Virus record (IMG/VR): IMGVR_UViG_3300014887_000097
Location: 1 to 22,711 of that record
Strand: one strand, 5' to 3'
Source of the DNA: a virus
DNA: 22,711 nucleotides
Part shown: positions 2,930 to 22,711 of the stretch, in pieces
How the letters are laid out: each line of letters begins with the position of its first letter
How positions within the stretch are numbered: the stretch's first letter is position 1
Position numbers and translations under genes: made by a program
The notes under the pieces: generated by a model
Seen by the model: the letters and a program-made list of their open reading frames with translations, nothing else
Told to the model about the DNA's origin: nothing
The model's database searches: none

Positions 2930-2979
2930 TCAAATCCCTCCCTTCAAATGTCTAAAAATATTATAAATTGGGGATTTGA
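2930..2979 (-). promoter_or_regulatory. Inverted repeat that can hide the tail tube ribosome binding site
   Basis: Nine-base perfect arms, TCAAATCCC at 2979-2971 and GGGATTTGA at 2938-2930 (minus-strand reading), enclose a 32-nt loop. The downstream arm covers the 3' half of the Shine-Dalgarno sequence (GGGAGGG) of the tail tube gene. The upstream arm is before the TATAAT box at 2965-2960, so RNA started at that box would lack it. All of it lies in the last codons of the preceding glycosyltransferase. Seen directly; the switch is inference. Confidence 0.5.
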
Positions 2980-4981
2980 ATGCCCTGATTTCCAAGAAAA
3001 AATCTGGTCTGTCGAGGCTTTGAATAAAACTAAATCCACCAGCTAAAAGCATAATTTTCAGCAAACTCACATTCAACAAAGTTTTCCTTTGTCCAAATTG
3101 GTGATTGGGATTACCCAAAAGCAAATTGTTGAGGTCTGAGATAGAGATGTGGCGAGAACAAAAGGCACGGGTTATCTTTTCGGCATCGGGTTCAAGGATG
3201 CGTATTTCTCCTTGGTTGTCCAACAAAGCACACAAATTGTTCAAAATGGATTGAATTTCATTTTTGGAATAATGAGACAAAAAATCATACAACACAAACA
3301 CCTTGACATCGTGAGCAAAAGGATCTAATGGATTCACATCATAAGGGGTGAGCCGATGAAAAAACGGCAATTGGAAATTCAAATCGCATGTAAACAAAAT
3401 GGAACGCTTGCGAATGAAAAGGAAATGTTGGTATTTGGGATGATTGCGTACAGCTTCGGGATGATCTCCCAGATATTCCACTGTGTACCCACCCCCAAAT
3501 GGATGATTGCCTGTGGTGCTTTCCACTTTCACTCGGTCTTTATCCCAAGCCTTCCATACCTCTTCATACCAATTTTCATTCAATTTGAAACCAGGAGTGC
3601 CCTTCTTGAGATAATATTCAAACTTTTGTTTAATCTTTTCATCACTTTGACAATAGTTGTAGTGGTGAAAATGGATTTCGGGATGTAAAGTGGCTGGAAT
3701 CACTTGACCATCCTCTGTGACAGGAGTCAAATGGTCTTTATACTTGAGCCCCTTGTCCAATTTTATCAAAGTACGACGACCCAAAAACTGCTCCCACACT
3801 CCTTTGTTCACTCTGGTAAAGTCTTTCCAAAACTCATACATTCCAAAACTGAAGGCTCTGACATGTGGTTCTCTGAACATCAATTCCTCTACCTTTGCCA
3901 TTTCCCGGTAGCTCCACACTTCATCCCCGTCGACTATTAAAGCATAATCAAATCCTTTCAAATGCTTGCAATATTCGTTTCTCATTTGTGTTTTGTCTTT
4001 CCACTTTCCTTGAATGAGTACAATTTTTTTCTGAGGATCATTGAAATTTTTTATTTTTTCAACTGTCCCATCACTACTGCTTCCGTCTGGTCGAGCAAAT
4101 TGCTTTGTGTATTCAGTACAGCCTTCTACAATGATGATTTTGTGAACCCAAGGGTAAATGCTGGCCAAGCTTTCGCTAATGAATTCGGCTTCATTAAACA
4201 CAATGTAGCAGGCTGTTATTTTAGGATAACGACACAATTTGCCAGTTCGAATCCATCTTTGTTTGAAAATTTCGTGGTTGTGAAACCAGACTTCAGATGG
4301 GCATCCTCCTGTGGTGGCTGATTGGTGGTGAATCATTTCCACCGAAGCACAATAATAAGTTTTCCATCCTTTCTCCAAAGCTCTCATACAAAAATCCGTG
4401 TCTTCAAAATATCCGAATACATACTGTTCATCAAATCCATTCAACTCATCCCACACTTTCCTTCTCACCATAAACAAAGCTCCTGTAACAGCTGGTACGT
4501 ATCTGCTTTGGTTTACTCGAGGATCTGCTTTGTGGGCTCGATAATGACGGTGAATGAAATTCATATGGCGTGAGGAGAATTCCATACCGCAATGTTGCAC
4601 AGTGTCGTCAGGGAAAATCAATTTGCATCCTACTATCCCCACATCCTTTTTCTCCTCAAATACCATCACCAACCTTCCCAGCCAATCATCATGCAAAATC
4701 TCGATATCTGAATTCATAAACAAAAGATATTCACCAATTGCCACTTTAGCTCCATGGTTGCATGCTTTTATAAATCCTTGATTGCTCTGTTGTATCACAT
4801 TTTCAAAATTGCTCAAATACTCCTTCATCCCAGGCTCTGTACTCCCATCATCCACAATCACCAATTCGTATTCAGCTCCAGCACGGTGTTGACAAAGCGA
4901 ACTTATGCATTTTTTCAACAACTGCAAATTATTGTAAACTGGAATGATAATTGATACCTTCGAAATCCTCTTCCCACTCAT
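2930..4981 (-). CDS. Two-domain GT2 glycosyltransferase with C-terminal half-methyltransferase domain
   Basis: 683 aa in three parts. Residues 8-245 are a GT-A family 2 transferase: VSIIIPVYNN, VIVDDGST, the metal-binding NSD (90-92) and the acidic EDTD (193-196). Residues about 254-520 form a second GT2-like domain of the type with ITACYIVFNEAEF and DGDE at 351-354. Residues about 545-670 match the C-terminal half of a type-11 SAM methyltransferase (LYDFLSHYSKNEIQ, GEIRILEPDAEKI, AGGF) but no glycine-rich SAM loop precedes it. It probably adds two sugars in sequence to a glycan; substrates are unknown. ATG with GGAGG 9 nt upstream; overlaps the Cys-rich gene before it by 53 nt. Last gene of the sugar cassette. 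Confidence 0.88.
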   Translation of the reverse strand: MSGKRISKVSIIIPVYNNLQLLKKCISSLCQHRAGAEYELVIVDDGSTEPGMKEYLSNFENVIQQSNQGFIKACNHGAKVAIGEYLLFMNSDIEILHDDWLGRLVMVFEEKKDVGIVGCKLIFPDDTVQHCGMEFSSRHMNFIHRHYRAHKADPRVNQSRYVPAVTGALFMVRRKVWDELNGFDEQYVFGYFEDTDFCMRALEKGWKTYYCASVEMIHHQSATTGGCPSEVWFHNHEIFKQRWIRTGKLCRYPKITACYIVFNEAEFISESLASIYPWVHKIIIVEGCTEYTKQFARPDGSSSDGTVEKIKNFNDPQKKIVLIQGKWKDKTQMRNEYCKHLKGFDYALIVDGDEVWSYREMAKVEELMFREPHVRAFSFGMYEFWKDFTRVNKGVWEQFLGRRTLIKLDKGLKYKDHLTPVTEDGQVIPATLHPEIHFHHYNYCQSDEKIKQKFEYYLKKGTPGFKLNENWYEEVWKAWDKDRVKVESTTGNHPFGGGYTVEYLGDHPEAVRNHPKYQHFLFIRKRSILFTCDLNFQLPFFHRLTPYDVNPLDPFAHDVKVFVLYDFLSHYSKNEIQSILNNLCALLDNQGEIRILEPDAEKITRAFCSRHISISDLNNLLLGNPNHQFGQRKTLLNVSLLKIMLLAGGFSFIQSLDRPDFFLEIRAFKSPIYNIFRHLKGGI
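2957..2968 (-). promoter_or_regulatory. Promoter-like box ATTTATAATATT upstream of tail tube gene
   Basis: Minus-strand 12-mer containing a perfect TATAAT (2965-2960), 29 nt upstream of the tail tube ATG. The identical 12-mer occurs at 14176-14187 and 19918-19929, also just before structural genes. No TTGACA-like element sits 16-18 nt upstream, so it would need an activator or a phage-specific factor. It would restart transcription of the tail genes after the sugar cassette. Confidence 0.5.
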
Positions 4982-5297
4982 ATAAATATTCCTCCTGTGT
5001 TATATCGCTTACCACTCCCAAATCGCATAAATCGGGACCTCTGCTTTTCCTAGCTCTGTCCAAATAGTCTAACACTTCATCTTCAATTTTCCTTTGATAA
5101 AAGAGATCCCTTTGGACTCGCTTTTTGCAATGGGGATATTTGGGACAAGATTCGCAATCCCATCCCAACACGCAGCGAGTCCCCATAACATATGCCACTA
5201 TGTCTGGTGTTAATGCTCGATGTCTTTTCAACTTCAACTGAACTCTGTTTATTTGGTAGCCTCTTTTTCTTGCTTGAGTGCCCAACAATTGTCTCAC
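4929..5297 (-). CDS. Small Cys-rich protein of unknown function
   Basis: About 122 aa. Four cysteines in a C-x5-C-x2-C-x5-C arrangement (C42, C48, C51, C57) could bind zinc or an iron-sulfur cluster. The N-terminus is very basic (RKRGYQINRVQLKLKRHR) and the C-terminus acidic. I do not recognise the family. The longest frame starts at a GTG that overlaps the stop of the GT9 gene (GTGA); a TTG three codons further (5288) sits 8 nt after a perfect AGGAGG and may be the true start. It lies between two glycosyltransferases and overlaps the following one, so it is part of the cassette's transcript. It might bind nucleic acid or act as a structural partner; nothing decides this. Confidence 0.6.
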   Translation of the reverse strand: MRQLLGTQARKRGYQINRVQLKLKRHRALTPDIVAYVMGTRCVLGWDCESCPKYPHCKKRVQRDLFYQRKIEDEVLDYLDRARKSRGPDLCDLGVVSDITQEEYLYEWEEDFEGINYHSSLQ

Positions 5298-6187
5298 CTC
5301 CTTTCCTTCAATTTTTGTAAAGCCAATTCAAATACCTGTTCTGCTTTCAACAATGATATGCATTTGGGAATTGAAGTGCCAAAACGAGGACAATTTGCCC
5401 CGTGAAACCAACAGGGATGACAATCAGGCAAAACTGACTGCATTATTATTGAAACGTTTTTGTCTGTTTTTCGTATTCGACATTTGGGATCTGTGCCTGC
5501 GAAATAGGCAAGTGTAGGAGTTCCAAAATGACAACCAAAGTGCAAAGCCCCTGTGTCTGGTGTGATTAAAAGGTCACATTGCTCGATGACAGCGGCCACT
5601 TGTCGAACATTGTATCCCCCGCACATGCTCACCACTCCATCCAGTCTTGCCAAATCAACAGGATGAGAATGCAAAAGAATCACAGTGCCTATTTCTCTCA
5701 GCATCTTGATCAACCTCAACTGTTGAATGGGGTCCCAATTTCTCACGTTACTCGAAGCCCTTAAAGCCACTGTTATGATTGGTCGAGCAAATTGAGACAA
5801 AAATTCTCTAGCCCATTTCCTCTCTTCATCTTTCACTTTGTACTCATAACTCAAATCTTCAATCGTTAAACCAGCCCATACACCCAATGCTTCCACAGCA
5901 TGCATTTTGAAAGCATAACCACATCTCACATGAGGACACAACTCATCTTCTATCACTCGGTCAAACTCAGAGCAATCATAACTGCCAAAATCGAGCAGTT
6001 CATCCACATGAGAGTTATTTTCATAAATCAGTTTCCAATGAGGTCCCCGACTGCTCACACACAAATACGTGTTGGGGAATGATTTTTTGATTTGGCGAAA
6101 AAGAGCAGTACGCCACAACAAATCTCCGATTCCTCCATAAATTTGGTACAACAATCTTCCACCTTTCCAACCAGCTAATACATTCAT
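5294..6187 (-). CDS. GT9 family (ADP-heptosyltransferase-like) glycosyltransferase
   Basis: 297 aa, GT-B fold. The N-terminal GGIGDLLWRTALFRQIKKSF (18-37) and the C-terminal TPDTGALHFGCHFGTPTLAYFAGTDP (209-234) are the two hallmark motifs of the heptosyltransferase/GT9 family; the D211-T-G-A-L-H loop binds the nucleotide-sugar donor. The usual length is about 330-350 aa, so this one is slightly short. In bacteria GT9 enzymes add heptose or related sugars to LPS cores, glycans or proteins. Start ATG overlaps the preceding stop (ATGA). Donor and acceptor are unknown; in this cassette the product is presumably part of a phage-encoded glycan. Confidence 0.88.
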   Translation of the reverse strand: MNVLAGWKGGRLLYQIYGGIGDLLWRTALFRQIKKSFPNTYLCVSSRGPHWKLIYENNSHVDELLDFGSYDCSEFDRVIEDELCPHVRCGYAFKMHAVEALGVWAGLTIEDLSYEYKVKDEERKWAREFLSQFARPIITVALRASSNVRNWDPIQQLRLIKMLREIGTVILLHSHPVDLARLDGVVSMCGGYNVRQVAAVIEQCDLLITPDTGALHFGCHFGTPTLAYFAGTDPKCRIRKTDKNVSIIMQSVLPDCHPCWFHGANCPRFGTSIPKCISLLKAEQVFELALQKLKERR

Positions 6188-7089
6188 TTCATCAACTGTT
6201 GTAACTGAGAATCATTTTGGTCAAAAACTTTCTTGTACCAGTTGGCAGTTTCTTTCAATCCCTCTTCTAATGAAGTCAATCTTTGTCTCAAATAGTCTTC
6301 ACCAAAAAACCTTCTCATTTCCATACAGGACGAATAACGCACCCTAGGACCTGCATAAGGGTTGTCCACAGTCAAAATCGCAGATTTGGAATCAAAAAGT
6401 TCACGAATTCTCATGGCCAATGACCTGATGCTTATGACAGCAAATGGATTACCTACATCCATTACTCCTGTCCAATTAGAAATAGCCAACATAGTCAAAA
6501 GCTCCACCAAATCTTTCACGTACAAAAATGAACGAACAGCGCAATAACCAGATTCCTCGTGCAGCGTCAAGGGCAAATGATGGTAAGCCCGATAGCAAAA
6601 GTATGGAACCACTCCTGCATGAATTCTTTGCCTGGGTCCGTAAACGTTGAACAATCTTGCTATAACATATGATGTCCAGCTTTCGGACACCAAAAACTCT
6701 TCCAACAACTTTATCCAAGCATAGGTAAACCTTTTGTGATATGAGAATTGATATTTTGGCCAATATTGTCCGTAAACTTCGCTACTAGAGGTCAAAACAA
6801 TTCTGTGTGAGCAACCAACAAAAGTCCTCAAAAGAAGCAAAGACCCAACCAAGTTGAATGTTTTGGTTTGCATAATTGTTTTCACTCCTACTCGGTCAGC
6901 CAACCAAAAAATCACGTCCCAAAATTCATTTTGCAAGTCCTCTATTGAAGTGGCAACAGGAATGGAAACATTGTCGGGATTGCCTGCTATTAAATTGTCC
7001 AACACTTCTACTTCATAACTTTGGTTCAGTAAATGTTCAACCAAATGACTACCAATGAATCCTGCTCCACCCACAACCAGACATTTCAT
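6184..7089 (-). CDS. NAD-dependent sugar-nucleotide epimerase/dehydratase (extended SDR)
   Basis: 301 aa from the ATG at 7089, which overlaps the previous stop (ATGA) and has AGGAGGAG 6 nt upstream; an upstream in-frame ATG at 7140 lacks this site. Rossmann loop GGAGFIG (7-13), TSSSEVYG, catalytic Tyr123-x3-Lys127 (YAWIK) and the ARLFNVYGPRQR motif are all present, so an active extended short-chain dehydrogenase is expected. These enzymes epimerise, dehydrate or decarboxylate NDP-sugars, such as UDP-glucose 4-epimerase or dTDP-glucose dehydratase. The region between the Rossmann loop and the active site is shorter than usual. It likely supplies an unusual sugar donor for the glycosyltransferases beside it. 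Confidence 0.9.
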   Translation of the reverse strand: MKCLVVGGAGFIGSHLVEHLLNQSYEVEVLDNLIAGNPDNVSIPVATSIEDLQNEFWDVIFWLADRVGVKTIMQTKTFNLVGSLLLLRTFVGCSHRIVLTSSSEVYGQYWPKYQFSYHKRFTYAWIKLLEEFLVSESWTSYVIARLFNVYGPRQRIHAGVVPYFCYRAYHHLPLTLHEESGYCAVRSFLYVKDLVELLTMLAISNWTGVMDVGNPFAVISIRSLAMRIRELFDSKSAILTVDNPYAGPRVRYSSCMEMRRFFGEDYLRQRLTSLEEGLKETANWYKKVFDQNDSQLQQLMK

Positions 7090-7952
7090 TTGTCTCCTCC
7101 TTGGATTTGGTTTAAAAGAGACAAAACTCTGTGCTTCCAAGTATGGTTTTGTGATTCTGTTTTGATTTGCTGAGCTTTTTTCTTCAACTCTTCTTCATCG
7201 ACTAAGAGCTCATCGATTTCTTTGGTCAAGTGTTCCAAATCCTTCACATATATAGGTGTTTTTAACACACGATATTTCTCATCCACCCAACTGGTCACTA
7301 CCACACACCCACATCCAGCTGCTTCGAAAACTCGCTGTTGGGTAGATTGGAAGGCCAATCCCCAATTCACTGCAATTCTAGTCTCAGCTAACAGCTTAGG
7401 GTAGTCGTCTCCAACCCAACCAACCAAAGCATTGTAGCGATGCTTTAATATATAAGCTACTTCCAACCTTGGACCTACAACAGAACATAAAAAGCATACA
7501 TCTCTCTTCTTCGATCGAGGTCGATAAACTTCAGGGTCATAACCCAATGGCAAAAAATAGACCTTCCCTCTTATTTTGTCTTGCATCCATTCAATTCCCG
7601 ATTGATCAAAATAAAAAACATAATCATAATAAGGAAACAAAGTCTGAAACAAAGCCCAGTTGGTTTTACTCCAGCGTACATCGTCTTGAAACCAAAATGC
7701 TTTGGGTACAGAAGCACGAGGAAAGGTTTGCAAAGGATCTACTCTTTCACCTTTGATAACCAACACCAAATCTATTCCTTTTGCATAAGCTTCATCCACT
7801 TTCATAAACAAATTGCTAGGAAACATTTTGCGATACGACAAAGCAATCACATTCCAATTCAACTGGCGAAAAGCTTTGGCCACACCTGATTCCATTCCTG
7901 CGACGTTGTCAAAATTTGCCCCCAAAATTAACACCGTTTTTTTAGTACCCAT
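7086..7952 (-). CDS. CgeB-like GT-B glycosyltransferase
   Basis: 288 aa from the ATG at 7952 (GGAG 8 nt upstream; the GTG at 7961 overlaps the ribosome binding site and is unlikely). N-terminal Rossmann part (KTVLILGANFDNVAGMESG), then WFQDDVRW, PLGYDPEVYRP in the linker and a C-terminal RVFEAAGCGCVVVTSW. This is the pattern of CgeB/DUF3880-type transferases, where 'E-A-A-G-C-G' contributes to donor binding. These appear in spore-coat, teichoic and capsule gene sets. It overlaps the preceding GT2 gene by 25 nt and the next by 4, so it is co-translated. Substrate is unknown. Confidence 0.83.
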   Translation of the reverse strand: MGTKKTVLILGANFDNVAGMESGVAKAFRQLNWNVIALSYRKMFPSNLFMKVDEAYAKGIDLVLVIKGERVDPLQTFPRASVPKAFWFQDDVRWSKTNWALFQTLFPYYDYVFYFDQSGIEWMQDKIRGKVYFLPLGYDPEVYRPRSKKRDVCFLCSVVGPRLEVAYILKHRYNALVGWVGDDYPKLLAETRIAVNWGLAFQSTQQRVFEAAGCGCVVVTSWVDEKYRVLKTPIYVKDLEHLTKEIDELLVDEEELKKKAQQIKTESQNHTWKHRVLSLLNQIQGGDK

Positions 7953-9061
7953 TCTGACCACTCTCCTTCTTTGGCTGTGTCTAATTGAATCAAGTCAAAA
8001 TCTTTGGTTCTAAATTTATTGGTTATCCAAATCAAAAAGCCTTGACGCCATTCGGGATCTCGTTTGCGACTGATAACCAAAATCAAATGTCCTCCCCTTT
8101 TCACCTTGCGAGAGCAAAGCAATATCTTTTTCTTAATCAACTGAGATAAGTCAGAAACAAAAATTAAAACGTAATCCAATCTCTCATCCTCAAACACCAT
8201 CTCGTCTTTCACGCTCGCAAAAATGTCTGAGCTAAGCCCAATGACTTGCATTCCTAACTCAATTCCGTTACCCTTCAAATACTTTTTCACAGCCTCCAGC
8301 ACATCAGCCACTTTAGCACATGTCATAGGTTGAAAAGTTGACTGACGATATCTCCAAAACTCATAATTGCGTTTCAAAGCATCCTGAAAAACTCTCCGCT
8401 TAGCCTTTATGGGATCTTTATGTTTGGCATACCACACAGTGTACTGATCTTCATGATGACGATTGAGGTACAACACCTTTGGGATATGTCGAATTTCCCA
8501 GCCCATTTCCAGAAGCCTAATCACGCAATCTGTATCTGCTGCATAATCAATGTCGGTTCTCCACCCCCCTATTTGAAGCAAAGCCTGCCTCTTGATAGCC
8601 TGCACGTGGCCAATTCTCTCAGTACCTTCCAAAGTGCCATCCCATTCTGGATAACTGTACACGCCTCCATGCATGAAGGCAATATCACTGTGAACAAAAA
8701 CCACGTTGTCTGGACATTTTTGGATAAACAAAGCCAATTCATTCAAAGTGCAAGGATAGAATTGATCGTCATCATCCAATCTCACAATCCAATCTCCCGC
8801 AGCATAAAACAAACCAACGTTGAACGATTTTTGCAAACCCAGATTGCAAAGGTTGGGTACGTACAAAATGGGGTTGGTAGTGAGACTTTGCGCTCTTTCT
8901 ATCATCGGTTTCAATAGCTGTTCCCCTGTGTCGTCTACAACTATGCACTCCCAGTAAGGATAAGATTGGGACAAAACAGATGTCAAAGCTTCAAACAGCC
9001 ATATTTGCCTGATTTCTGACTTTGCTGCGCTGGTAATGATGACAGAAAACTTCAAAGCCAT
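7928..9061 (-). CDS. GT2 glycosyltransferase with degenerate C-terminal methyltransferase-like domain
   Basis: 377 aa. Residues 4-235 are a family 2 GT-A transferase: FSVIITSAAK, CIVVDDTGE, the metal-binding RLDDDD (94-99), and a later acidic AADTD (174-178). Residues about 245-375 resemble a shrunken class I methyltransferase: VLEAVKKYLKGNGIELGMQ, VFEDERLDYVLIFVSDLSQ and VKRGGHLILVISRKRD follow the order of the SAM loop, the 'fD.v' strand and 'l.pGG.l.l', but the GxGxG loop is absent. It is therefore perhaps a non-catalytic module. ATG start with GGAGG 7 nt upstream, overlapping the sulfotransferase by 10 nt. The C-terminal assignment is tentative. Confidence 0.85.
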   Translation of the reverse strand: MALKFSVIITSAAKSEIRQIWLFEALTSVLSQSYPYWECIVVDDTGEQLLKPMIERAQSLTTNPILYVPNLCNLGLQKSFNVGLFYAAGDWIVRLDDDDQFYPCTLNELALFIQKCPDNVVFVHSDIAFMHGGVYSYPEWDGTLEGTERIGHVQAIKRQALLQIGGWRTDIDYAADTDCVIRLLEMGWEIRHIPKVLYLNRHHEDQYTVWYAKHKDPIKAKRRVFQDALKRNYEFWRYRQSTFQPMTCAKVADVLEAVKKYLKGNGIELGMQVIGLSSDIFASVKDEMVFEDERLDYVLIFVSDLSQLIKKKILLCSRKVKRGGHLILVISRKRDPEWRQGFLIWITNKFRTKDFDLIQLDTAKEGEWSEWVLKKRC

Positions 9062-9729
9062 CGCAAATCCTCCTGAATGAAGTTGGTTGTTTCGGGGTTG
9101 TCAAAAGAGATTTTCAGAAATTCAGACAAAAGTCTCAGTTGATTACAACGAGATTCCTCGCTTTGAAACCATTTTTCAAAAATCACGTGTAATGTCGGGA
9201 CTTTGGCATGATTCAATGCTGTCAGTATTTTTTCACTGTAAATATAACAGAGATGAAGGGATTTTTTCAAATCGAATTTGTCACGAGATTCCAAACTCCG
9301 AGCCACATCAAGAGGATTTCTCCAACACACTATCACATGGGGATTCTTCACCAAAGGAATCCAAAGCTCCAAAAACAAAGATGTTCGGGGATCTTTCCAT
9401 CCCCACAAATCCCTTTGAGAGCGACTTTCAACAAGTTTCTTAGCCTTTTGTATTTGGCGCTGAAAACAATCTTGGAGCAAATGAAAAGAAGGAATTTGGC
9501 TCCAGCTACCTCCCGCAGCCTCCAAAAGCTCGATGTGAAATCGAACAAACTCCGCATCCTCAAAATAACCCTTGGGGTTGAAACGATCGGATTTCAAAAA
9601 GCGAAAGCCCATACAAATCCCCACAATATGACACAACCCTGCCACCAGACTGGTTCCGCTGCGATGCATTCCTACTATGATAATCGTCTTTGCTGTGTTT
9701 TTTGGTTTTTTCTGCTCACTCATCATCAT
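9052..9729 (-). CDS. PAPS-dependent sulfotransferase
   Basis: 225 aa. The 5'-phosphosulfate-binding loop is clear: IIIVGMHRSGTSLVAGL (16-32), followed by NPKGYFEDAEF, WGWKDPRTS (109-117) and the 3'-phosphate motif VIVCWRNPLDVARSL (132-146). The family transfers sulfate from PAPS to sugars or other hydroxyl groups. Length is normal for short bacterial sulfotransferases. Three in-frame ATGs (9729, 9726, 9723) lie close together; AAAGGTG precedes the first. It overlaps neighbours on both sides. In this cassette it probably sulfates the glycan made by the adjacent transferases. PAPS would come from the host. Confidence 0.88.
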   Translation of the reverse strand: MMMSEQKKPKNTAKTIIIVGMHRSGTSLVAGLCHIVGICMGFRFLKSDRFNPKGYFEDAEFVRFHIELLEAAGGSWSQIPSFHLLQDCFQRQIQKAKKLVESRSQRDLWGWKDPRTSLFLELWIPLVKNPHVIVCWRNPLDVARSLESRDKFDLKKSLHLCYIYSEKILTALNHAKVPTLHVIFEKWFQSEESRCNQLRLLSEFLKISFDNPETTNFIQEDLRWL

Positions 9730-9910
9730 TCACCTTTTCTACTTCATCTGGCCAAAACCAAAAAAGTCCAGCCTCTGCCACATCTACCAAAACTTGGTTC
9801 TTCTCTATTTGCATAACCACTCCTTCTTTCCCGTCCAAACACATCATTCTTGTAGTCTCATTCGATCTGATCTTTATCCTGTCGCCTGGTTTAAACCCAT
9901 GTTCCACCAT
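9716..9910 (-). CDS. Small beta-barrel (SH3/KOW-like) protein
   Basis: 64 aa. FKPGDRIKIRS, then DGKEGVVMQIEKNQVLVDV and a final FWFWPDEVEKV give the pattern of a KOW/SH3-like small barrel, in which a glycine separates two strands around a 'G-x-V' turn. Such proteins bind RNA, ribosomes or proteins, but no specific role can be assigned. GGGAGGTG lies 7 nt before the ATG and is inside an 8-bp hairpin (9914-9936). It overlaps the preceding gene by 37 nt and the sulfotransferase by 14 nt. Confidence 0.6.
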   Translation of the reverse strand: MVEHGFKPGDRIKIRSNETTRMMCLDGKEGVVMQIEKNQVLVDVAEAGLFWFWPDEVEKVNDDE

Positions 9911-10113
9911 GGCGTTACACCTCCCAGTGGTGTAACTGTGAAGTGAATTTCTCCCACCTCAGCCTTTATCTCCAATCTCCACTTGCCCAAATAAAAACTC
10001 AATTCGGCTTTACCTGTGGAAGCATATTGGGGATGAAGATTGTCTGGATTGGTCGACCAAAGTTTCAAAAAATGTTCCACCAACTTGGCTATCACTTCAG
10101 CATCTTCCTTCAT
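9874..10113 (-). CDS. Small protein of unknown function (79 aa)
   Basis: ATG overlaps the previous stop (ATGA) with GGGGGTGATG upstream. An N-terminal amphipathic helix (EVIAKLVEHFLKLW) is followed by beta strands (KAELSFYLGKWRLEIKAEVGEIHFTVTP). No family is recognised. The end of the gene contains the hairpin that covers the ribosome binding site of the next gene, and overlaps that gene by 37 nt. Its tight coupling to both neighbours suggests that it works with them, but nothing shows how. Confidence 0.55.
   Translation of the reverse strand: MKEDAEVIAKLVEHFLKLWSTNPDNLHPQYASTGKAELSFYLGKWRLEIKAEVGEIHFTVTPLGGVTPWWNMGLNQATG
9914..9936 (-). promoter_or_regulatory. RNA hairpin covering the ribosome binding site of the KOW-like gene
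   Basis: Perfect 8-bp arms GTTACACC and GGTGTAAC with a 7-nt loop (ACTGGGA on the coding strand). The Shine-Dalgarno GGGAGGTG lies across the loop and the 3' arm, and the ATG follows 3 nt after the stem. The hairpin is inside the preceding 79-aa coding region (codons for VTPLGGVT), so ribosomes translating that gene would melt it. Seen directly; the regulatory role is inferred. Confidence 0.6.
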
Positions 10114-10724
10114 TTTATCATCACCCCCTCACCCAATGGTTTGACACGAGTTAAAATAGCAAAACCGTGTCGCCAACCTCTTTCTTTGTATTTCCATTCG
10201 TTCATCTTGGAACATCTCAAAAACAAATCGATAGCTGCTTTGACCTCAACCCTCTCCGTATCATGAAGGAAAATCTGGTTGGTAAGCCAAGAATAACTGA
10301 AGAGTTCCGTCACTGTATGCTCATACTCGTGAGATGAATCAATGAACACAAAACGAGCTGCAGGGCTGAAACCTTTCCCCAAAAACATTTGTATTCCTCT
10401 TATGATTTTCAACACATTTCGGTCATCCTCACGGACGAACACATGATAACAATTCAGTCCCAATTGTTTGATTCTCTCCCGAGCATCAGAACAAGGCTTA
10501 TAATCCACGCTGAACAATCTTGCGTTGGAATTTGATTCTTTAATTCCCCACAGGATTGCCTCGGTTGAGCGTCCAGGACCCACGCCTAGTTCCAACGCCC
10601 AATCCTTGTCTTTGAATTTTTTTGCCTCTTCATACAAAAAATAGACAGCTCCTCCCAAGTCGCCGTGAGACAACAATTCCAACCTTTGTTTCACGATATC
10701 TACAACAACTCTTTCAGCTTCCAT
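10110..10724 (-). CDS. Class I SAM-dependent methyltransferase
   Basis: 204 aa from the ATG at 10724 (GGAGG 7 nt upstream; the TTG at 10739 is less likely). SAM loop ALELGVGPGRSTEAIL, acidic second strand LFSVDYKP, then FVFIDSSHEYEHTVTEL, which is typical of the methyltransferase-24 group, and a later FLHDTE that may bind metal. The group includes O-methyltransferases acting on sugars and small molecules. It overlaps the GT4 gene by 25 nt, so it belongs to the sugar cassette and probably methylates a sugar of the glycan. Substrate is not evident from the sequence. Confidence 0.83.
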   Translation of the reverse strand: MEAERVVVDIVKQRLELLSHGDLGGAVYFLYEEAKKFKDKDWALELGVGPGRSTEAILWGIKESNSNARLFSVDYKPCSDARERIKQLGLNCYHVFVREDDRNVLKIIRGIQMFLGKGFSPAARFVFIDSSHEYEHTVTELFSYSWLTNQIFLHDTERVEVKAAIDLFLRCSKMNEWKYKERGWRHGFAILTRVKPLGEGVMIK

Positions 10725-11764
10725 TTGTTCTCCTCCCAATTGTACAATTGCAAAGCTCTTTGTCTAGCCAATTGTTGATGACGAATCAACATCATAGGAT
10801 TGTCTGCATAAAATAACATAGACATCGCCAAATCTTTCACATCAACCAAAGCCACATCCACAAATACCCCTTGCTGCTTGGTCAAAATGCAATTACAAAG
10901 CAAGCCACAATCTGGAGTCACTATTTCATTCATTGGAGGTGCAGCTACTGTGATGACAGGTCTTCCACAAGACAAAGATTCCAAAAGATTCAAACCCAAA
11001 CCCTCCCATTTGCTTGGTATCAAAGTGACGTCATTGAAATGGTAAGCTCGGAGAATTTTGTTTCGGCTTTCATTTCCAAAGCTTCTCTTCCACCCCAATC
11101 CTTCCAGTGCCTCGCCAGGTGGTTTGGGATATTGAGAGTGAATGTACAATTCGCATTTCTTGGTTGGTATGGTATAAGAAAAGGCTTCCATCACTGCTCC
11201 AAAATTTTTCCTTCCATACATTCCTCCCCAACCTTCACAAAAGAAAAACCTCGTTTTCCTTTTGCCTTCATATAAAGGACCTGGTCGCCAATAATCAACA
11301 TCTATTCCCCACCTCATATAAAACACATTTTTCAATCCGTAATTTTTCAATCTTTTATAACAAGCATAAGTGGGACAGATTAATGCGTCGAATCTCTCAT
11401 ACAATTCTTTGTCTTGGGGATTCACACTTTCCCACACCGCATAATTGAACACCTTACCTCTGAATGATTCCAAGCATGGGATGGTGTGTTTCAAAGTGAA
11501 ATGTTCTTCAATGAAAAAGATTACATCTAGATCTCGGATGAAAAAGGATAAAAGGCTTTGGGGTATTTCATAGGAGGGAGAAACCACTACTGGAAATTCA
11601 AATGATTCTCTTTCCCAGGTTCTTTTGGACAGACCTTTCACATTGGTGGGTCGAGCCAAAATTCGAACATCCCATCCCCATTCCTGAAGGCAGGAAGCAA
11701 TTTGATAGGCTATGTAGCCAGCTCCTCTCTCAAACCAAACTGAAATTACACCAACTTTTTTCAC
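10700..11764 (-). CDS. GT4 family glycosyltransferase, first gene of the sugar cassette
   Basis: 354 aa, GT-B. The N-terminal KKVGVISVWFERGAGYIAYQ is the acceptor-side glycine-rich loop; MRWGIDVDYWRPG is the inter-domain linker; PSKWEGLGLNLLESLSCGRPV (250-270) contains the E254-x7-E262 motif that binds the nucleotide-sugar donor. All are family 4 hallmarks, so a retaining transferase is expected. It starts at a GTG. A TATAAT box ends only 8 nt before this GTG, so the mRNA would be leaderless or nearly so. No other start codon is near. The gene is separated from the preceding one by 49 nt that hold this promoter. Confidence 0.88.
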   Translation of the reverse strand: MKKVGVISVWFERGAGYIAYQIASCLQEWGWDVRILARPTNVKGLSKRTWERESFEFPVVVSPSYEIPQSLLSFFIRDLDVIFFIEEHFTLKHTIPCLESFRGKVFNYAVWESVNPQDKELYERFDALICPTYACYKRLKNYGLKNVFYMRWGIDVDYWRPGPLYEGKRKTRFFFCEGWGGMYGRKNFGAVMEAFSYTIPTKKCELYIHSQYPKPPGEALEGLGWKRSFGNESRNKILRAYHFNDVTLIPSKWEGLGLNLLESLSCGRPVITVAAPPMNEIVTPDCGLLCNCILTKQQGVFVDVALVDVKDLAMSMLFYADNPMMLIRHQQLARQRALQLYNWEENKWKLKELL

Positions 11765-17521: not shown

Positions 17522-18433
17522 TTAGCTCAACACGTTGGTTAAGAGATAACCTGCATCAGGACAAAGAATTTTGGGATCGTAATTGCACAAGCAGCGAATC
17601 CACTCACCCTCTCTCTCTTCGTCCCTCCAGGTCTGTACCAAAAAGTTTCTCTTGGAATGGATGAACGTACGCCCTAATGTTACGGTGTCAGCAGGGTTGA
17701 CATAAGCCACTACCACTGTGTCGCCCCAAACAAAGTCCATATCCACGCTCAAGCCTTCCTTTGCTTTGTTGTAAACAGCTGGACATACAACCACCTGTAA
17801 ATCCCAAAGCTGAGCAGGTAAACCACCTTTGGTTAACAATTCTCGGCTAGTATACTTGATGAGTTCTTTGACTTGGTTGGTTTTTGCTAATGCAGTTTCA
17901 ACTTCAGGAGTCATATAAATGACATTGGGCATGCGACCAATTGCTTTGGCAATGGTCATTTTAGCTGTTCTAATATCACCTTGAGGGTCTGCATTAGCAG
18001 CATCGTCCCATTTGGTACTAGGAGTGGATGAATTGGTGATTTTGGATGTGACTACATCTTTCACGTCAATTTCCATCCCAAGCTTGATTCGAGAAGTGAG
18101 AAACTTTGTAACATCAGCTTTGAGATTAAACACATTGTCTGCATTAGCTACAGCACGGTCTGTGACGATATCCTTCAGTGCCCTTTCTTTGCATGTATAG
18201 GTATCATAGCTATAGCTGAGGCTTGCTTCTTCAGCTGGAGCACCATCAGCACGAATTGGAGCACCTTTGAAGTAACCGTCCTTTTTGTAAACCTTTATCT
18301 TGTCACTCTCTCTTTGCACGAGAAAAGGTGGCAACAACCTGTCCCAATAGAATTGGTCTTGTCCGTATTGAATTGCAATTTTGGACAAATATACATTGGT
18401 ATGAATATTGCCTGTCTGTACAGTGATTGCCAT
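17522..18433 (-). CDS. Major capsid protein
   Basis: 303 aa. The pattern near the N-terminus (FYWDRLLPPFLVQRESDKIKVY), then APIRADGAPAEEASLSYSYD, TYTCKERALKDIVTDRAVANAD and PADTVTLGRTFIHSKRNF near the end, is that of a HK97-fold capsid protein group seen in Mu-like and other phages. It would form the icosahedral shell. AGGAGG lies 10 nt before the ATG. It follows the decoration-protein gene by 16 nt. The position after scaffold and decoration proteins and its size agree with the call. Confidence 0.88.
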   Translation of the reverse strand: MAITVQTGNIHTNVYLSKIAIQYGQDQFYWDRLLPPFLVQRESDKIKVYKKDGYFKGAPIRADGAPAEEASLSYSYDTYTCKERALKDIVTDRAVANADNVFNLKADVTKFLTSRIKLGMEIDVKDVVTSKITNSSTPSTKWDDAANADPQGDIRTAKMTIAKAIGRMPNVIYMTPEVETALAKTNQVKELIKYTSRELLTKGGLPAQLWDLQVVVCPAVYNKAKEGLSVDMDFVWGDTVVVAYVNPADTVTLGRTFIHSKRNFLVQTWRDEEREGEWIRCLCNYDPKILCPDAGYLLTNVLS

Positions 18434-18449
18434 TACTTTCTCACCTCCT

Positions 18450-19052
18450 TTACACTACACTAGAATTTTTGATATGTCTTTCTCTTGCAATTAATACCCG
18501 AAATTCCTGATTTGGTGTGGTAGCATCCTCTAAAGCATAACCAATCACGGGCTGATCAATCTGGTAAGCCAAAGTGCAATCATAAGCACCACTGAAATAA
18601 ACAGATGTACCTTCAGCTGTCAGATAAATTGGAGTGCCTGTGCCCGAAGCCTTTTTGACTGAGCCTGGAACAGCTTTGTAAGATAAGCTTGCATAACCAG
18701 CAGCTGTACCAGACACATGCTCACCAGAAACAAATGCACTTCTTACCTTACCCACTGTTCCACCACTGTTTGCGTGATCATAGATGACGGGATCTCCTTT
18801 GTTCACTGTTCCTGCCTTGGAGCAAATGACCTTTGCCACCCCTCCACAAGCCACCACAACCCAATTGTTCAATGTGCCTTCATCCTGAAGCACTCCGAAA
18901 ATCAAATCATTTGCACTGTGGAGATATTCACAGGCATCAGCTGTCCCAATAGCCATCCTGACCACGTGGTGTTTGAAGGCTTTGTTTGTAGCATCAATCC
19001 ATTTTAGACTTCTCAAAATCTCAGGATTTTCTCCATACCCAAATCCGCTCAT
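18450..19052 (-). CDS. Capsid decoration protein (DUF2190-like)
   Basis: 200 aa, beta-rich. LIFGVLQDEGTLNNWVVVACGGVAKVICSKAGTVNKGDPVIY (motif at about residues 50-91) and the final PVIGYALEDATTPNQEFRVLI match the pattern of DUF2190 decoration/cement proteins ('G.v...a.aG..V.v...G.....a.g.i..Gd.v' and 'G.ALeda..g..i.vll'). These trimerise on the capsid surface and stabilise the head. AGGAGG lies 10 nt before the ATG. Neighbours are scaffold and capsid genes. Confidence 0.75.
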   Translation of the reverse strand: MSGFGYGENPEILRSLKWIDATNKAFKHHVVRMAIGTADACEYLHSANDLIFGVLQDEGTLNNWVVVACGGVAKVICSKAGTVNKGDPVIYDHANSGGTVGKVRSAFVSGEHVSGTAAGYASLSYKAVPGSVKKASGTGTPIYLTAEGTSVYFSGAYDCTLAYQIDQPVIGYALEDATTPNQEFRVLIARERHIKNSSVV

Positions 19053-19068
19053 TCATATCACCTCCTTC

Positions 19069-19533
19069 CTAAACTTGAATTTTGCCTTCTTTGGCTAATC
19101 TGGCACAAGCCTCTTCAAAACTCAATCCATTTTTCTTTGCCCACTCTTCAACTTCTTCCAAAGTCATTCCAGCCGGTTCGCCAGGCTTCGTGGTTTCAGA
19201 ATGGGTCCTTTCGTCATAGCTGAGCAACACGCTTTCAGGAATGGTTTGAAGTAATTCATCAATCACATCCATCATAGGCTTACCTTCACCATTGTCTTCA
19301 AGTTTGATAACCATATCACGAGAGTTGAGCAATATCTCTTTCACTTTGTCTACCATCGCTGGCCAATAACCTTTGTCCAGGTATTCTTGGCACTTTTTGT
19401 TCACTTGCTCCTCGAATAACTTGCGCTCTGATTCTTTGATTTTCTCTTGAAGTTGTTTATTGGCTTCGGCTAATGCTTTGTTGAGCTCTTCTAGTTTTTT
19501 GACTCTTTCTTCCATTTCCTCTAATCTCTTCAT
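19069..19533 (-). CDS. Possible internal in-frame scaffold product (154 aa)
   Basis: Methionine 112 of the scaffold-like gene (ATG 19533-19531) is preceded by a perfect AGGAGG (19547-19542) with an 8-nt spacer, better than many true starts in this window. Translation from it would give only the coiled-coil and C-terminal domain, as with lambda Nu3 made inside gene C. Sequence-level evidence only. Confidence 0.5.
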   Translation of the reverse strand: MKRLEEMEERVKKLEELNKALAEANKQLQEKIKESERKLFEEQVNKKCQEYLDKGYWPAMVDKVKEILLNSRDMVIKLEDNGEGKPMMDVIDELLQTIPESVLLSYDERTHSETTKPGEPAGMTLEEVEEWAKKNGLSFEEACARLAKEGKIQV

Positions 19534-19866
19534 ATCAATCGCCTCCTCTGCTTTTTTCTTTTTGTCTTCTGGATACTGATACCCTTCTTTCTCAGCAGCC
19601 TCCTTCTTCCTCTTCTCCTCCTCTTCCTCTGGATATTGATATCCTTTTTCAGCAAACAAATATGGACATGCGTGACCGCTCAACATCTGCTCACACTTTT
19701 TAGCCAGCTCTCTCAACTTTTGGCGTTCTTCACCTTTCTTCTTTTTGATGACTTCGGGATATTTGCCATACTCCACCTTTGCCTCTTCTCCCAACTCGAT
19801 CACAATAGGACATTCATCAGTTCCTGCCTTTTTGCAAACTGGCATATCTTTCAAATTATGAGCCAT
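19069..19866 (-). CDS. Capsid scaffold-like coiled-coil protein
   Basis: 265 aa from the ATG at 19866, which has AAGGAGGTG 7 nt upstream; a longer frame from 19902 lacks a site. The N-terminal domain has four cysteines (C11, C19, C58, C67) and a duplicated GYQYPE (75-80 and 95-100), each followed by a charged E/K run. Residues 112-160 are a strong coiled coil (EEMEERVKKLEELNKALAEA), then helices and a C-terminal LEEVEEWAKKNGLSFEEAC. Its position immediately before decoration and capsid genes suggests a scaffold. No protease motif is seen. A second start at codon 112 is likely (see separate entry). Confidence 0.7.
   Translation of the reverse strand: MAHNLKDMPVCKKAGTDECPIVIELGEEAKVEYGKYPEVIKKKKGEERQKLRELAKKCEQMLSGHACPYLFAEKGYQYPEEEEEKRKKEAAEKEGYQYPEDKKKKAEEAIDMKRLEEMEERVKKLEELNKALAEANKQLQEKIKESERKLFEEQVNKKCQEYLDKGYWPAMVDKVKEILLNSRDMVIKLEDNGEGKPMMDVIDELLQTIPESVLLSYDERTHSETTKPGEPAGMTLEEVEEWAKKNGLSFEEACARLAKEGKIQV
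19542..19547 (-). promoter_or_regulatory. Internal ribosome binding site in the scaffold gene
   Basis: AGGAGG inside codons for Glu-Glu-Ala, 8 nt before the in-frame ATG at 19533. Supports a separate short scaffold product. Confidence 0.5.
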
Positions 19867-19878
19867 ACTTCGCACCTC

Positions 19879-19938
19879 CTTCCATTTGAATTTGGGTTTC
19901 ATTGAACCTCTACATTAAATATTATAAATGAATGGAAG
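19879..19938 (-). promoter_or_regulatory. Inverted repeat that can hide the scaffold gene ribosome binding site
   Basis: Eight-base arms CTTCCATT (19938-19931) and AATGGAAG (19886-19879) on the minus strand. The downstream arm overlaps the 5' part of the GGAAGGAGG ribosome binding site. The upstream arm lies before the TATAAT box at 19926-19921 and would be missing from RNA started there. Same plan as at the tail tube gene (2930-2979). Confidence 0.45.
19918..19929 (-). promoter_or_regulatory. Promoter-like box ATTTATAATATT upstream of the head genes
   Basis: Third copy of the 12-mer, with TATAAT at 19926-19921. It lies in the only intergenic stretch of any size (19867-20032), before the scaffold, decoration and capsid genes. 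No good -35 at 16-18 nt. Confidence 0.55.
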
Positions 19939-20032: not shown

Positions 20033-20245
20033 TTAGAATTTATTGATGCGACCGCAACGTGGACACTTGATTTCTCCTGCTACTCCTCTGACACTGGGTT
20101 TAGCCAAACACTTATGACACCTTTCACAACGAATTTCATGATAAACAGCCAAACAAAAAGTGCCCACATTGGGCAAAACCAAGCAGGGATGACCCAAAAG
20201 ATGATGAGTGAAACTCAGACGGGGAGAATTGATTTTGGATTTCAT
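20033..20245 (-). CDS. Com-like zinc-ribbon protein
   Basis: 70 aa. The second half, EIRCERCHKCLAKP and GEIKCPRCGRINKF, follows the Mu Com pattern (IRC..C.K.L.K, then EI.CPRC.R) and has two CxxC pairs that should bind zinc. Mu Com binds mom mRNA and activates its translation. The ATG at 20245 overlaps the previous stop (ATGA), which gives an N-terminal extension of about 36 residues not found in Com; a longer frame from 20359 lies inside the previous gene and is unlikely. There is no mom-like gene beside it. It may be a translational regulator or a general zinc ribbon. Confidence 0.65.
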   Translation of the reverse strand: MKSKINSPRLSFTHHLLGHPCLVLPNVGTFCLAVYHEIRCERCHKCLAKPSVRGVAGEIKCPRCGRINKF

Positions 20246-21048
20246 TTTTGTTTGCTCAATACTTGTTCCTTGGTTCGATTTTTCACTTTTATCATCATCC
20301 ATTGCCTCACTCCAGGACCTGTGGGCACGTAATTGAACTGGTAACAACCCTTCAACCATTTACCCTCCAGCCAAAATTCCTTGTGGTGACGGTCTTGAGT
20401 TCCTGCCCACCATCTGCCTTCATCTCTCATAGTCAATCTGCCCCAATGTTTTTCATCAGCTCCAGGAGTGCCCGGTCTGGCTATGTAAGGCTTGTCCTTG
20501 CCTATTTTCATCCAATCCAAAGGTCCCTTCACCACCTCAACCAACTCTTTAGATCCCTCAGCCTCCAATTCCTTCTCTCTGCCTTTTTTGAAATCAAAAA
20601 GAAAAGGCTGCTCCTCTTCAAACACCAACAATGGATTGTCATGAAATTGGTTGCCTGGTTTGAAGATCTCTCCTCCTTCAAAATAATCATCTCGCTTTGG
20701 TCGCAAACGATGAAATCTGATATCAGTATGAATGCTCACAGGATTGACCAAAGCCAAAACCTTGAGTTGCTGCACATTCAGATCCTCTATGTCCAAACCC
20801 TCCACAAACTTGTTCAATCTTTGGATAAACAATTTGTCTTCATGAATCTTAGGATCATTGATTTTATCCCAATTGAAATCAGCTATTGTTCTCAGAATGT
20901 TCAATTGGGAAGGAGACAAAAACACCCGCTTCCATCCCAAATCATGAGTGTATTTGATTTGATATTCCAATAAAAACCTTTCATGTGTTTGCACTACAAA
21001 CCTGCCCGAATCTCCAAAAGCATAATCTAGGTTTCCTTCCCTTGCCAT
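20242..21048 (-). CDS. LigD 3'-phosphoesterase-like protein
   Basis: 268 aa. It has two stretches that resemble the phosphoesterase domain of LigD. At 104-131, VSIHTDIRFHRL followed by DDYFEGGEIFKPG recalls the catalytic H-x-D-x-R strand (HYDFRLE) and its following hairpin. At 225-256, FWLEGKWLKGCYQFNYV and QWMMIKVK recall the closing 'L.G.kLkG.w.Lvr ... WlLiK'. Near the N-terminus, FVVQTHE (17-23) recalls the 'FVVQkH' opening. LigD phosphoesterases remove 3'-phosphates and ribonucleotides from DNA ends before ligation. ATG with GAGAGGT upstream, overlapping the ligase gene by 22 nt, so both are made together. Divergent; the call rests on motif order, not on a search. Confidence 0.6.
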   Translation of the reverse strand: MAREGNLDYAFGDSGRFVVQTHERFLLEYQIKYTHDLGWKRVFLSPSQLNILRTIADFNWDKINDPKIHEDKLFIQRLNKFVEGLDIEDLNVQQLKVLALVNPVSIHTDIRFHRLRPKRDDYFEGGEIFKPGNQFHDNPLLVFEEEQPFLFDFKKGREKELEAEGSKELVEVVKGPLDWMKIGKDKPYIARPGTPGADEKHWGRLTMRDEGRWWAGTQDRHHKEFWLEGKWLKGCYQFNYVPTGPGVRQWMMIKVKNRTKEQVLSKQK

Positions 21049-22700
21049 ATGTGACCTCTCTTAGCCAAATCCACACATTGGTTGGCAAAATAAGGTTTGG
21101 TTCTCTCCTTATCGATGTCTACAGGTAATGCTCCTAGCCAATCCAAAACAGGACCTTTGGGAGTGTCTTTTGGAATCAGCTCCTCCACTTCCACAGTGAT
21201 AATGTCTCCTGGCTCTGCCCTAAACTTAGCATTGTAAGTTTTGCCCATATCAACTAATTCTTGACCTTGAAATTCAATAGTATTCACATAAGGACTGTCT
21301 CCTTTCAACAATCCACACCAAAATGAATATGTACCATTTGCATTGCGCTGCACTTTGTAAACCATAGCCTTAAATTCCACCATGTGTTTTATCTTAGCCC
21401 ACTCAGCCATGGGACCAAATTGGTAACCGCTGTCCAAATTCTTGGCCACAATTCCCTCGCTCATAGGTAGAAAGCCTAACTTTTTGAAGGCCCTTTCCAA
21501 CTCGGGTTTAGAATCCACTATCATTTGCTGAGACAATTCAAAATGAGGATTGCCTTTCAAATAACGATTGTAAAATTCCTCCAGCCTTTTCCTTCTGATG
21601 CCCAAAGGCTGAGAGGTCAAATCCTCCTTCCAATAAGGCAAATCAAAAATGGTGGCAACCAACACCTCCCCTTCTTCCAACTTAGGATTTCCTCCTATCA
21701 GTTTCATGAGCATGATTCTGGGCAAAGGCTTTCCTTTTTCATTTATGCCTACATTAGTGTCCAAAGCAAAATCATCAGGAATCTTTTTCAAAGGCTCAAT
21801 CAAATCAGGAAAATCTCTTTCCTTTTGGCTGTCTTCAAAAAAGCAAGAAATTCGATTCCCTTTTTTCTGTATAAAACAACGAAAACCATTCAGCTTGTTC
21901 TCCACTGCTATCTTGTGACCAGCTTCAATACGCTTCTTTGCCCAATTGTCCCACAATTCATCTACATTGAAAAATTCTGTGTAAACCTTCATTTGTGGCT
22001 TAGGTAATTGCATCCCCTTTTGAATTGGTTCATAAAGTTTACAGCTTTGTGGAGAATCTATGCATCTCCTAGTTCCCGAAGTAGATCCTTTCACTGCCTT
22101 CATAACTCCTTTCAAATAGCAATAATCTCCTTTCACTTGCTCTTCCAGCTCCTCCAATTCGAACAATGGACGTCCTTGAGCCAGATGTGGTTGGGTGTAA
22201 AACATTACCACAGTTTTGTTCCAAAAATTGCGATGATCGGGAATGTAAGCCCCTTCACCCTTGGTAGAAGGCACTTCAAACACCAATCTTCCCCCAGGCT
22301 TCAAAATTCTCCAAATTTCCCACATAATGGCTGTTTGGTCATCAAAATGTTCTAATGAATGGATAGCCCTCACCTCATCTGCACAATTATCAGGCAAAGG
22401 AATCCCTTGGTTGCAATCATAAACCAAATCCACGCCAGGATAATATACTTTATCTATTCCGAAATAACCTTCAGCTTTGTTGGGACCGCATCCCAAATCA
22501 ACTTTGAAATTTGATGGAAACTGAGACAATTGTTTAGGGTTGTCTTCAAACTTGAAACCTCTTTTTTGCAAAATCGGTTTCAGATATTTTTCAGCTGCTT
22601 TGCTCCATTCTTCGGGATGAAAAGTGATTGCTTTTCTTTTCAACAATTCATCCACAATTTTTTCCAAAAATGAAATTCCCTCTTCTCTCGATTTGAACAT
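21027..22700 (-). CDS. Methyltransferase fused to ATP-dependent DNA-ligase-like domain
   Basis: At least 557 aa. Residues 60-150 are a class I methyltransferase: VDLGCGPNKAEGYFGID (67-83), LPDNCADEVRAIHSLEHF and RILKPGGRLVFEVPS. Residues 235-520 resemble an ATP-dependent ligase: motif I ENKLNGFR with candidate nucleotide-accepting Lys269, DFPDLIEPL, LVATIFDLPYW plus RRKRLEEF (IIIa), motif IV EGIVAK (415-420), motif V WAKIKH (434-439), then an OB-fold with GDIITVEVEEL. Motif I has Asn where Asp is usual and motif III reads ALDTN without the usual Glu. No ribosome binding site precedes the ATG at 22700 in the 11 nt that remain, and the frame is open to the edge, so the gene may start outside the window. 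Followed by the phosphoesterase-like gene. Confidence 0.82.
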   Translation of the reverse strand: MFKSREEGISFLEKIVDELLKRKAITFHPEEWSKAAEKYLKPILQKRGFKFEDNPKQLSQFPSNFKVDLGCGPNKAEGYFGIDKVYYPGVDLVYDCNQGIPLPDNCADEVRAIHSLEHFDDQTAIMWEIWRILKPGGRLVFEVPSTKGEGAYIPDHRNFWNKTVVMFYTQPHLAQGRPLFELEELEEQVKGDYCYLKGVMKAVKGSTSGTRRCIDSPQSCKLYEPIQKGMQLPKPQMKVYTEFFNVDELWDNWAKKRIEAGHKIAVENKLNGFRCFIQKKGNRISCFFEDSQKERDFPDLIEPLKKIPDDFALDTNVGINEKGKPLPRIMLMKLIGGNPKLEEGEVLVATIFDLPYWKEDLTSQPLGIRRKRLEEFYNRYLKGNPHFELSQQMIVDSKPELERAFKKLGFLPMSEGIVAKNLDSGYQFGPMAEWAKIKHMVEFKAMVYKVQRNANGTYSFWCGLLKGDSPYVNTIEFQGQELVDMGKTYNAKFRAEPGDIITVEVEELIPKDTPKGPVLDWLGALPVDIDKERTKPYFANQCVDLAKRGHIWQGKET

Positions 22701-22711
22701 TGATTTGCGAC

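Follow-up and report, generated by a model that had tools for sequence, protein, structure and literature searches.

Many uncultured bacterial and archaeal viruses encode, between the portal and the scaffold and capsid genes of their head operon, a capsid maturation protease that is fused to, or accompanied by, a Pol-beta-like nucleotidyltransferase (NTase), a methyltransferase (MTase), an ATP-dependent DNA ligase and a LigD-type phosphoesterase (PE). These unrelated enzyme domains were found in one polypeptide in most loci. There is an even chance, in our estimate, that they form a polyvalent, protease-linked kit for the processing and sealing of DNA ends, which would be carried by the virion and act on incoming phage DNA. 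The architecture is widespread, and the papers searched contained no description of it.

The window, i.e. the whole stretch of DNA analysed, was an entire virus record of 22,711 bp. Two ORFs on its minus strand, overlapping each other by 22 bp, encoded an MTase-ligase protein read as 557 aa and a PE of 268 aa (Table 1). The former ran into the window edge without a start; as the window is the whole record, it is the record and not the virus that lacks the start of the gene. The reading as a standalone MTase-ligase gene was thereby ruled out. In two near-identical contigs (L013 and G061) these 557 residues formed the C-terminal half of a protein of ~1073 aa. The L013 protein was 1073 aa long, was 100 % identical to the window sequence over the shared 557 aa and displayed, in this order, a Mu-I-like head protease (PF10123, E 2e-13), a Pol-beta-like NTase carrying the motif GSHTKGDLSSDLDL, the MTase and the ligase. 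The remark in the first-pass annotation that no polymerase or primase domain was visible hence reflected an edge effect, the missing half containing a Pol-beta-palm-like NTase and not the AEP type of LigD. The MTase, said to be fused in place of such a domain, was present (Methyltransf_11, E 2.1e-8), but its fusion partners also included the head maturation protease. In G061, a contig of 79,661 bp, the polyprotein gene was split over the two contig ends, which displayed a near-identical but inexact repeat of ~103 bp; this suggests that the 79.7-kb contig is a circular assembly, an inexact terminal repeat giving no certainty on packaging. Compared with a close relative, both window genes were under strong purifying selection, with dN 0.017 and dS 0.203 for the PE gene and dN 0.006 and dS 0.237 for the MTase-ligase. 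A chance pair of ORFs was ruled out by these values and by conservation.

Table 1. Features of the polyprotein locus and of the downstream head genes in the window
Feature	Position	Strand	Evidence or remark
C-terminal 560 codons of the ~1073-aa polyprotein (MTase and ATP-dependent DNA ligase)	21027..22709	minus	ORF open at window edge, 5' part outside; complete in L013:3369-6590
SAM-dependent methyltransferase domain (motif DLGCG)	22239..22502	minus	Pfam Methyltransf_11 / Methyltransf_23 above cut-off
DNA ligase nucleotidyltransferase domain	21387..21920	minus	Pfam DNA_ligase_A_M, motif table over relatives, fold match of L037
C-terminal OB-like part of ligase (limits approximate)	21081..21368	minus	family alignment continues past Pfam domain; beta-rich in L037 model
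268-aa LigD-type 3'-phosphoesterase-like protein	20242..21048	minus	AlphaFold2 model and Foldseek PDB matches, invariant columns, profile link with LigD PE
Com-like zinc-ribbon ORF directly after PE gene (start uncertain)	20033..20359	minus	Pfam Zn_ribbon_Com E 3.9e-6, residues 74-107
Scaffold-like protein	19069..19902	minus	matches phrog_976 head maturation protease positions 209-397, E 1.1e-6
Decoration/cement-like head protein	18450..19052	minus	Pfam Phage_cement_2 just under cut-off; phrog_673, phrog_122
Major head protein	17522..18433	minus	phrog_1005 E 1.2e-60

The 268-aa protein gave no useful match by sequence in Pfam, PHROGs or PDB. Its AlphaFold2 model (pLDDT 82.6, 24 aligned sequences) was compared with PDB by Foldseek, and the seven best matches were all LigD PE entries, namely 3p43 (E 7e-6), 3n9b (twice), 3n9d, 3p4h, 5dmp and 2lj6, each with a probability of 1.00 and with E values ranging up to 1.2e-3; what came next was noise, starting with a match of probability 0.06. 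The relationship to LigD that had been proposed from motif order was thus borne out. Direct profile comparison between the window PE family and cellular LigD PEs was marginal (31 %, E 5e-4), whereas a bridging group composed of L104, L106-L108 and ANMV-1 displayed profile probabilities of 97.8 % to the window family and 96.1 % to cellular LigD PEs; it was therefore the structure together with this group that settled the identity. The divergent member from L106 also cleared the Pfam LigD_N cut-off (31.4 versus 31.1 bits). In L106 and L107 the PE protein (L106:7112-8953 and L107:8263-10089) seemed to contain two or three tandem PE-like units, and LigD_N matched different portions of it in the two loci.

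Residues Q20, H22, H107, D109 and R111 were invariant in all 24 sequences of the PE family, and in the model H22 and H107 were separated by a helical insertion. The Mn site of the Pseudomonas aeruginosa LigD PE is composed of His42, His48 and Asp50, with Arg52, His84 and Tyr88 holding the phosphate (PMC8656161). By motif order, H22, H107 and D109 would be the one-to-one equivalents of the metal triad. His84 and Tyr88 had no clear equivalent in the family, so that the PE is of LigD type in its fold and, by this pairing, in its metal site but differs in its phosphate pocket, where the invariant H221 is a candidate stand-in for His84.

The DNA-ligase-like domain reported in the first-pass annotation was recovered by Pfam DNA_ligase_A_M (E 6.9e-13, 49.2 bits for a cut-off of 26.2). 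L037, a full-length relative whose model reached a pLDDT of 78, found its best matches among human, archaeal and T4 DNA ligases; the 50 structure matches listed for it were all DNA ligases and included no RNA ligase. With the 557-aa protein, Pfam RNA_lig_T4_1 reached an E value no better than 0.15. The window ligase displayed motifs KLNGFR (I, with Lys269 of the 557-aa reading), LDTN (III, without the usual glutamate), SEGIVAK (IV) and WAKIK (V). Across 47 relatives the nucleophilic lysine, the glutamate of motif IV and a lysine of motif V were kept wherever the alignment covered them. The main clade, to which the window belongs, displayed KxNG in motif I and lacked the glutamate of motif III (LDTN, LDCS, LDFG), while the deeper relatives L106-L109 and ANMV-1 displayed both KxDG and the motif III glutamate. 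L110, from a Thermoplasmatota genome, combined KFNG with an intact DGE, which indicates that an asparagine in motif I is, by itself, not necessarily the sign of an inactive ligase. The loss of the motif III glutamate is nevertheless a real warning as to ligase activity in the clade of the window. No second PF01068 ligase was detected in nine records.

The NTase was recognised by Pfam DNA_pol_B_palm in six of 16 members (best E 2.4e-6), and a profile search of PDB found Pol-beta alone, weakly (E 0.2). Pfam scans of the full proteins yielded no AEP-type polymerase; the match was to the Pol-beta palm instead. In the clade fused to XkdF, three aspartates (D60, D62 and D113) were invariant, while the group of the window kept the DxD and displayed histidine or lysine in place of the third aspartate. 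With this aspartate and the motif III glutamate of the ligase both missing, the catalytic competence of NTase and ligase in the window's own clade must be regarded as uncertain, as read from the motifs. The Pfam family of the window MTase is not a DNA-methylase one.

Searches started from the PE revealed that, among the complete loci, most encode a single protein of 1018 to 2137 aa that displays NTase, MTase, ligase, PE and XkdF protease in this order. As these loci had been chosen for their PE, the search was repeated starting from the ligase, which gave 48 viral loci, a set in which near-duplicate contigs (L075/L076, L082/L083, L104/L105 and L013/L068) slightly inflate the counts. Among the 40 loci that extended 900 bp or more downstream, the PE adjoined or lay inside the ligase protein in 38 and shared its ORF in 33; co-occurrence of the two in other phages, which the first-pass annotation had named as a test of its proposal, is thus the rule. 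L069, where the ligase was followed by other genes and not directly by a PE, departed from it, and no PE was found at the ligase locus of L109. A XkdF or Mu-I protease domain was found in 30 of 34 loci with at least 2.4 kb downstream, and profiles built for the NTase and the MTase each matched in 36 of 41 loci with at least 1.3 kb upstream. Relatives L020 and L040 lacked the ligase.

Within 50,697 phage records the sole protein found with a comparable enzyme core belonged to the archaeal virus ANMV-1, where it is annotated as DNA ligase; one short unannotated contig gave a weak ligase match, and the remaining records among the matches listed displayed a protease or an MTase match alone. When the ANMV-1 protein was used to search viral contigs, no relative sharing its short peptide patterns was found. 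The genome collection gave a single match, a contig of a Thermoplasmatota MAG with NTase, PE and protease, and a viral fold library gave one borderline match, A0A516LT18, an unnamed protein of 827 aa (E 3e-3, probability 1.00). A search for Ku (PF02735) detected none in nine records, which include the 79.7-kb relative but may be fragments, while the B. subtilis control was positive; this agrees with the earlier remark that no Ku was visible. Mu Gam, considered as a substitute for Ku, gave no match, but its control gave none either.

Placement of the two genes in a head operon, proposed from the window, was confirmed: portal (Mu-type) and MuF genes lie upstream of the polyprotein gene in L013, and scaffold/protease-like, decoration and major capsid genes follow the PE gene in the window. 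The position was stable in the relatives whose loci were inspected, with terminase and portal before the polyprotein gene and scaffold and capsid after it. The protease domain of the polyprotein was of PF10123 in L013 and L004 and of PF14550 in L006, L008, L010 and L011; in the window it falls outside the record edge. In the XkdF family model phrog_3017 the protease and scaffold parts constitute one protein, whereas here the scaffold part is encoded separately, by the following gene, and the enzymes are attached to the protease. Com, the phage Mu protein resembled by the ORF that directly follows the PE gene, is a regulator of mom translation. The structural region of the window also harbored, on the minus strand between tail-tube and holin-like genes (2930-11764), a glycan-type cargo cluster with glycosyltransferases and with proteins resembling epimerases, heptosyltransferases and sulfotransferases. 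The near-identical virus of the 79.7-kb contig G061 encoded a protein of 365 aa (L059:10105-11202) whose CXXCH motifs are doubled, as in a multihaem cytochrome c.

Additional polyprotein domains varied between relatives. In the longest polyprotein (2137 aa, L039:3069-9482) the NTase and the usual MTase were separated by an additional region, a DNA methyltransferase. That of L104 (1539 aa, L104:1534-8305) started with a queuine-transferase-like domain, probably of DpdA type, followed by NTase, PE, ligase and XkdF; GTP-cyclohydrolase (FolE-like) and QueC-like genes lay directly upstream, which suggests that 7-deazaguanine DNA modification is tied to the same polyprotein. In L106 (L106:3343-6879) a metallo-beta-lactamase-like domain was joined before the ligase, and visual inspection suggested a similar domain in L111, the Thermoplasmatota contig (L111:1-3375). 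It is possibly an extra nuclease in both.

As they share a chain with the capsid maturation protease or are encoded next to it, the enzymes are probably brought into the procapsid and delivered from there. The fusion would place them in the prohead and proteolysis would free them, which fits the idea of polyvalent proteins, an earlier example of enzymes that phages inject along with their DNA (PMC5512222). The polyprotein would then be a miniature Ku-less worker of LigD type, in which the NTase may add or fill in nucleotides at DNA ends, the PE may clean 3' ends of phosphates or ribonucleotides and the ligase may seal the cleaned ends, while the MTase and, in some relatives, DNA-modification enzymes would ride along. 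Carried by the virion and released with the genome, the set may repair or join the ends and breaks of incoming phage DNA in the host, or protect them. The PE and ligase folds, the Pol-beta-like palm of the NTase, the regular co-occurrence with the PE and the protease, the position between portal and capsid genes, the DNA-directed additional cargo and the purifying selection speak for this explanation. Against it count the altered ligase and NTase motifs in the clade of the window, the lack of clear counterparts of His84 and Tyr88, the failure to detect Ku, the relatives lacking PE or ligase and the MTase, for which end joining offers no evident role. A narrower version, according to which it is a Ku-independent end-joining kit that is made in one chain with the capsid protease, is released by it and heals, circularizes or repairs the genome before viral gene expression, appears less probable to us.

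The same enzymes might instead mend RNA. NTase (then RlaP-like), MTase, ligase and PE would repair tRNAs, or RNAs of another kind, that anti-phage nucleases of the host have cleaved, after delivery with the virion or after late synthesis. The PE of LigD also acts on 3' ribonucleotides, and the MTase lies outside the DNA-methylase families. This alternative must be taken seriously since, in jumbo phages, Pol-beta NTases (RlaP) accompany RNA ligases (PMC7824862). We consider it unlikely all the same: the listed structure matches of the ligase all point to DNA, its RNA_lig_T4_1 match is poor, the additional cargo of the relatives is DNA-directed and RNA-repair genes would not usually be expected to be linked to a head protease. 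Loss of function is another possibility, less probable still, whereby ligase and NTase would be catalytically dead in the clade of the window and act as modules that bind DNA ends or nicks, or as structural internal head domains, leaving the PE and the MTase as its sole enzymes, if any. The missing aspartate of motif I and glutamate of motif III in the ligase and the histidine or lysine at the third aspartate of the NTase would be explained in this way; invariance of the nucleophilic lysine, the motif IV glutamate and the motif V lysine throughout the clade would be unexpected in a dead enzyme, and both the three aspartates retained in the XkdF-fused clade and the pairing of a motif I asparagine with an intact DGE in L110 argue in the same direction.

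The least probable explanation, in our view, limits the enzymes to assembly, where they would repair nicks or ends of replicating or packaging DNA in the prohead and be degraded or shed before the virion is released. Their fusion to a maturation protease is compatible with this, and in some phages the head loses the products of that protease. To keep five domains on a single structural chain, however, would seem a costly solution where free enzymes would suffice, and the variable additional cargo resembles delivered effectors more.

If the virion-carried set for DNA ends is indeed what the polyprotein provides, its enzymes could counter damaged ends, or cuts made by restriction or CRISPR systems, ahead of viral gene expression. 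Enzymes of end-joining type are encoded by dozens of uncultured viruses themselves, one virus and one likely provirus of archaea among them, and functions can be predicted for proteins so far left unnamed or merely called 'ligase' or 'methyltransferase' in databases.

In bacterial non-homologous end joining (NHEJ), LigD unites polymerase, phosphoesterase and ligase and works with Ku. The viral set shares with it the PE fold and, by motif order, the metal triad, an ATP-dependent DNA ligase and a nucleotide-adding domain, all three in one chain or operon. It differs by a Pol-beta-like NTase in place of the AEP polymerase, by the lack of a detected Ku, by a fused or adjacent capsid protease and an extra MTase, by the altered motifs I and III of the main-clade ligase and by the helical insertion of the PE. 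Since neither an AEP polymerase nor Ku was found when looked for, the set is not classed as LigD, though it would be an analogue of LigD in its working. Mycobacteriophages Omega and Corndog, as they are cited in PMC7719229, encode Ku and use the LigD of their host. They likewise apply end joining to their own genome, but Ku is encoded and LigD borrowed there, while the viruses described here encode the enzymes and yielded no Ku; compared with this known viral end joining, the enzymatic side is viral here and tied to capsid maturation. In about 3,000 actinobacteriophages that were surveyed, NHEJ components were not found (PMC7719229).

The closest annotated protein, AJP62006.1 of ANMV-1 ('ATP-dependent DNA ligase'), also unites NTase, ligase and PE next to a portal-like gene; it has no fused MTase or protease, its ligase motifs I and III are intact and its record names neither PE nor NTase. 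Families phrog_1530 ('DNA methyltransferase') and phrog_14859 ('RNA ligase') resemble the polyprotein in carrying a C-terminal XkdF (S78_2) protease behind other domains, but their models count 373-379 positions and neither covers the NTase-MTase-ligase-PE array. Polyvalent proteins are likewise large, display several unrelated enzyme domains and variable cargo and are encoded among virion genes (Iyer et al. 2017, PMC5512222), a type of architecture that the first-pass annotation had rightly recognised here. The main text of that study nowhere mentions LigD, end joining or XkdF. By its testable features the polyprotein belongs with the polyvalent proteins; what is new is its fixed partner, a head protease of Mu-I or XkdF type, and its end-joining core.
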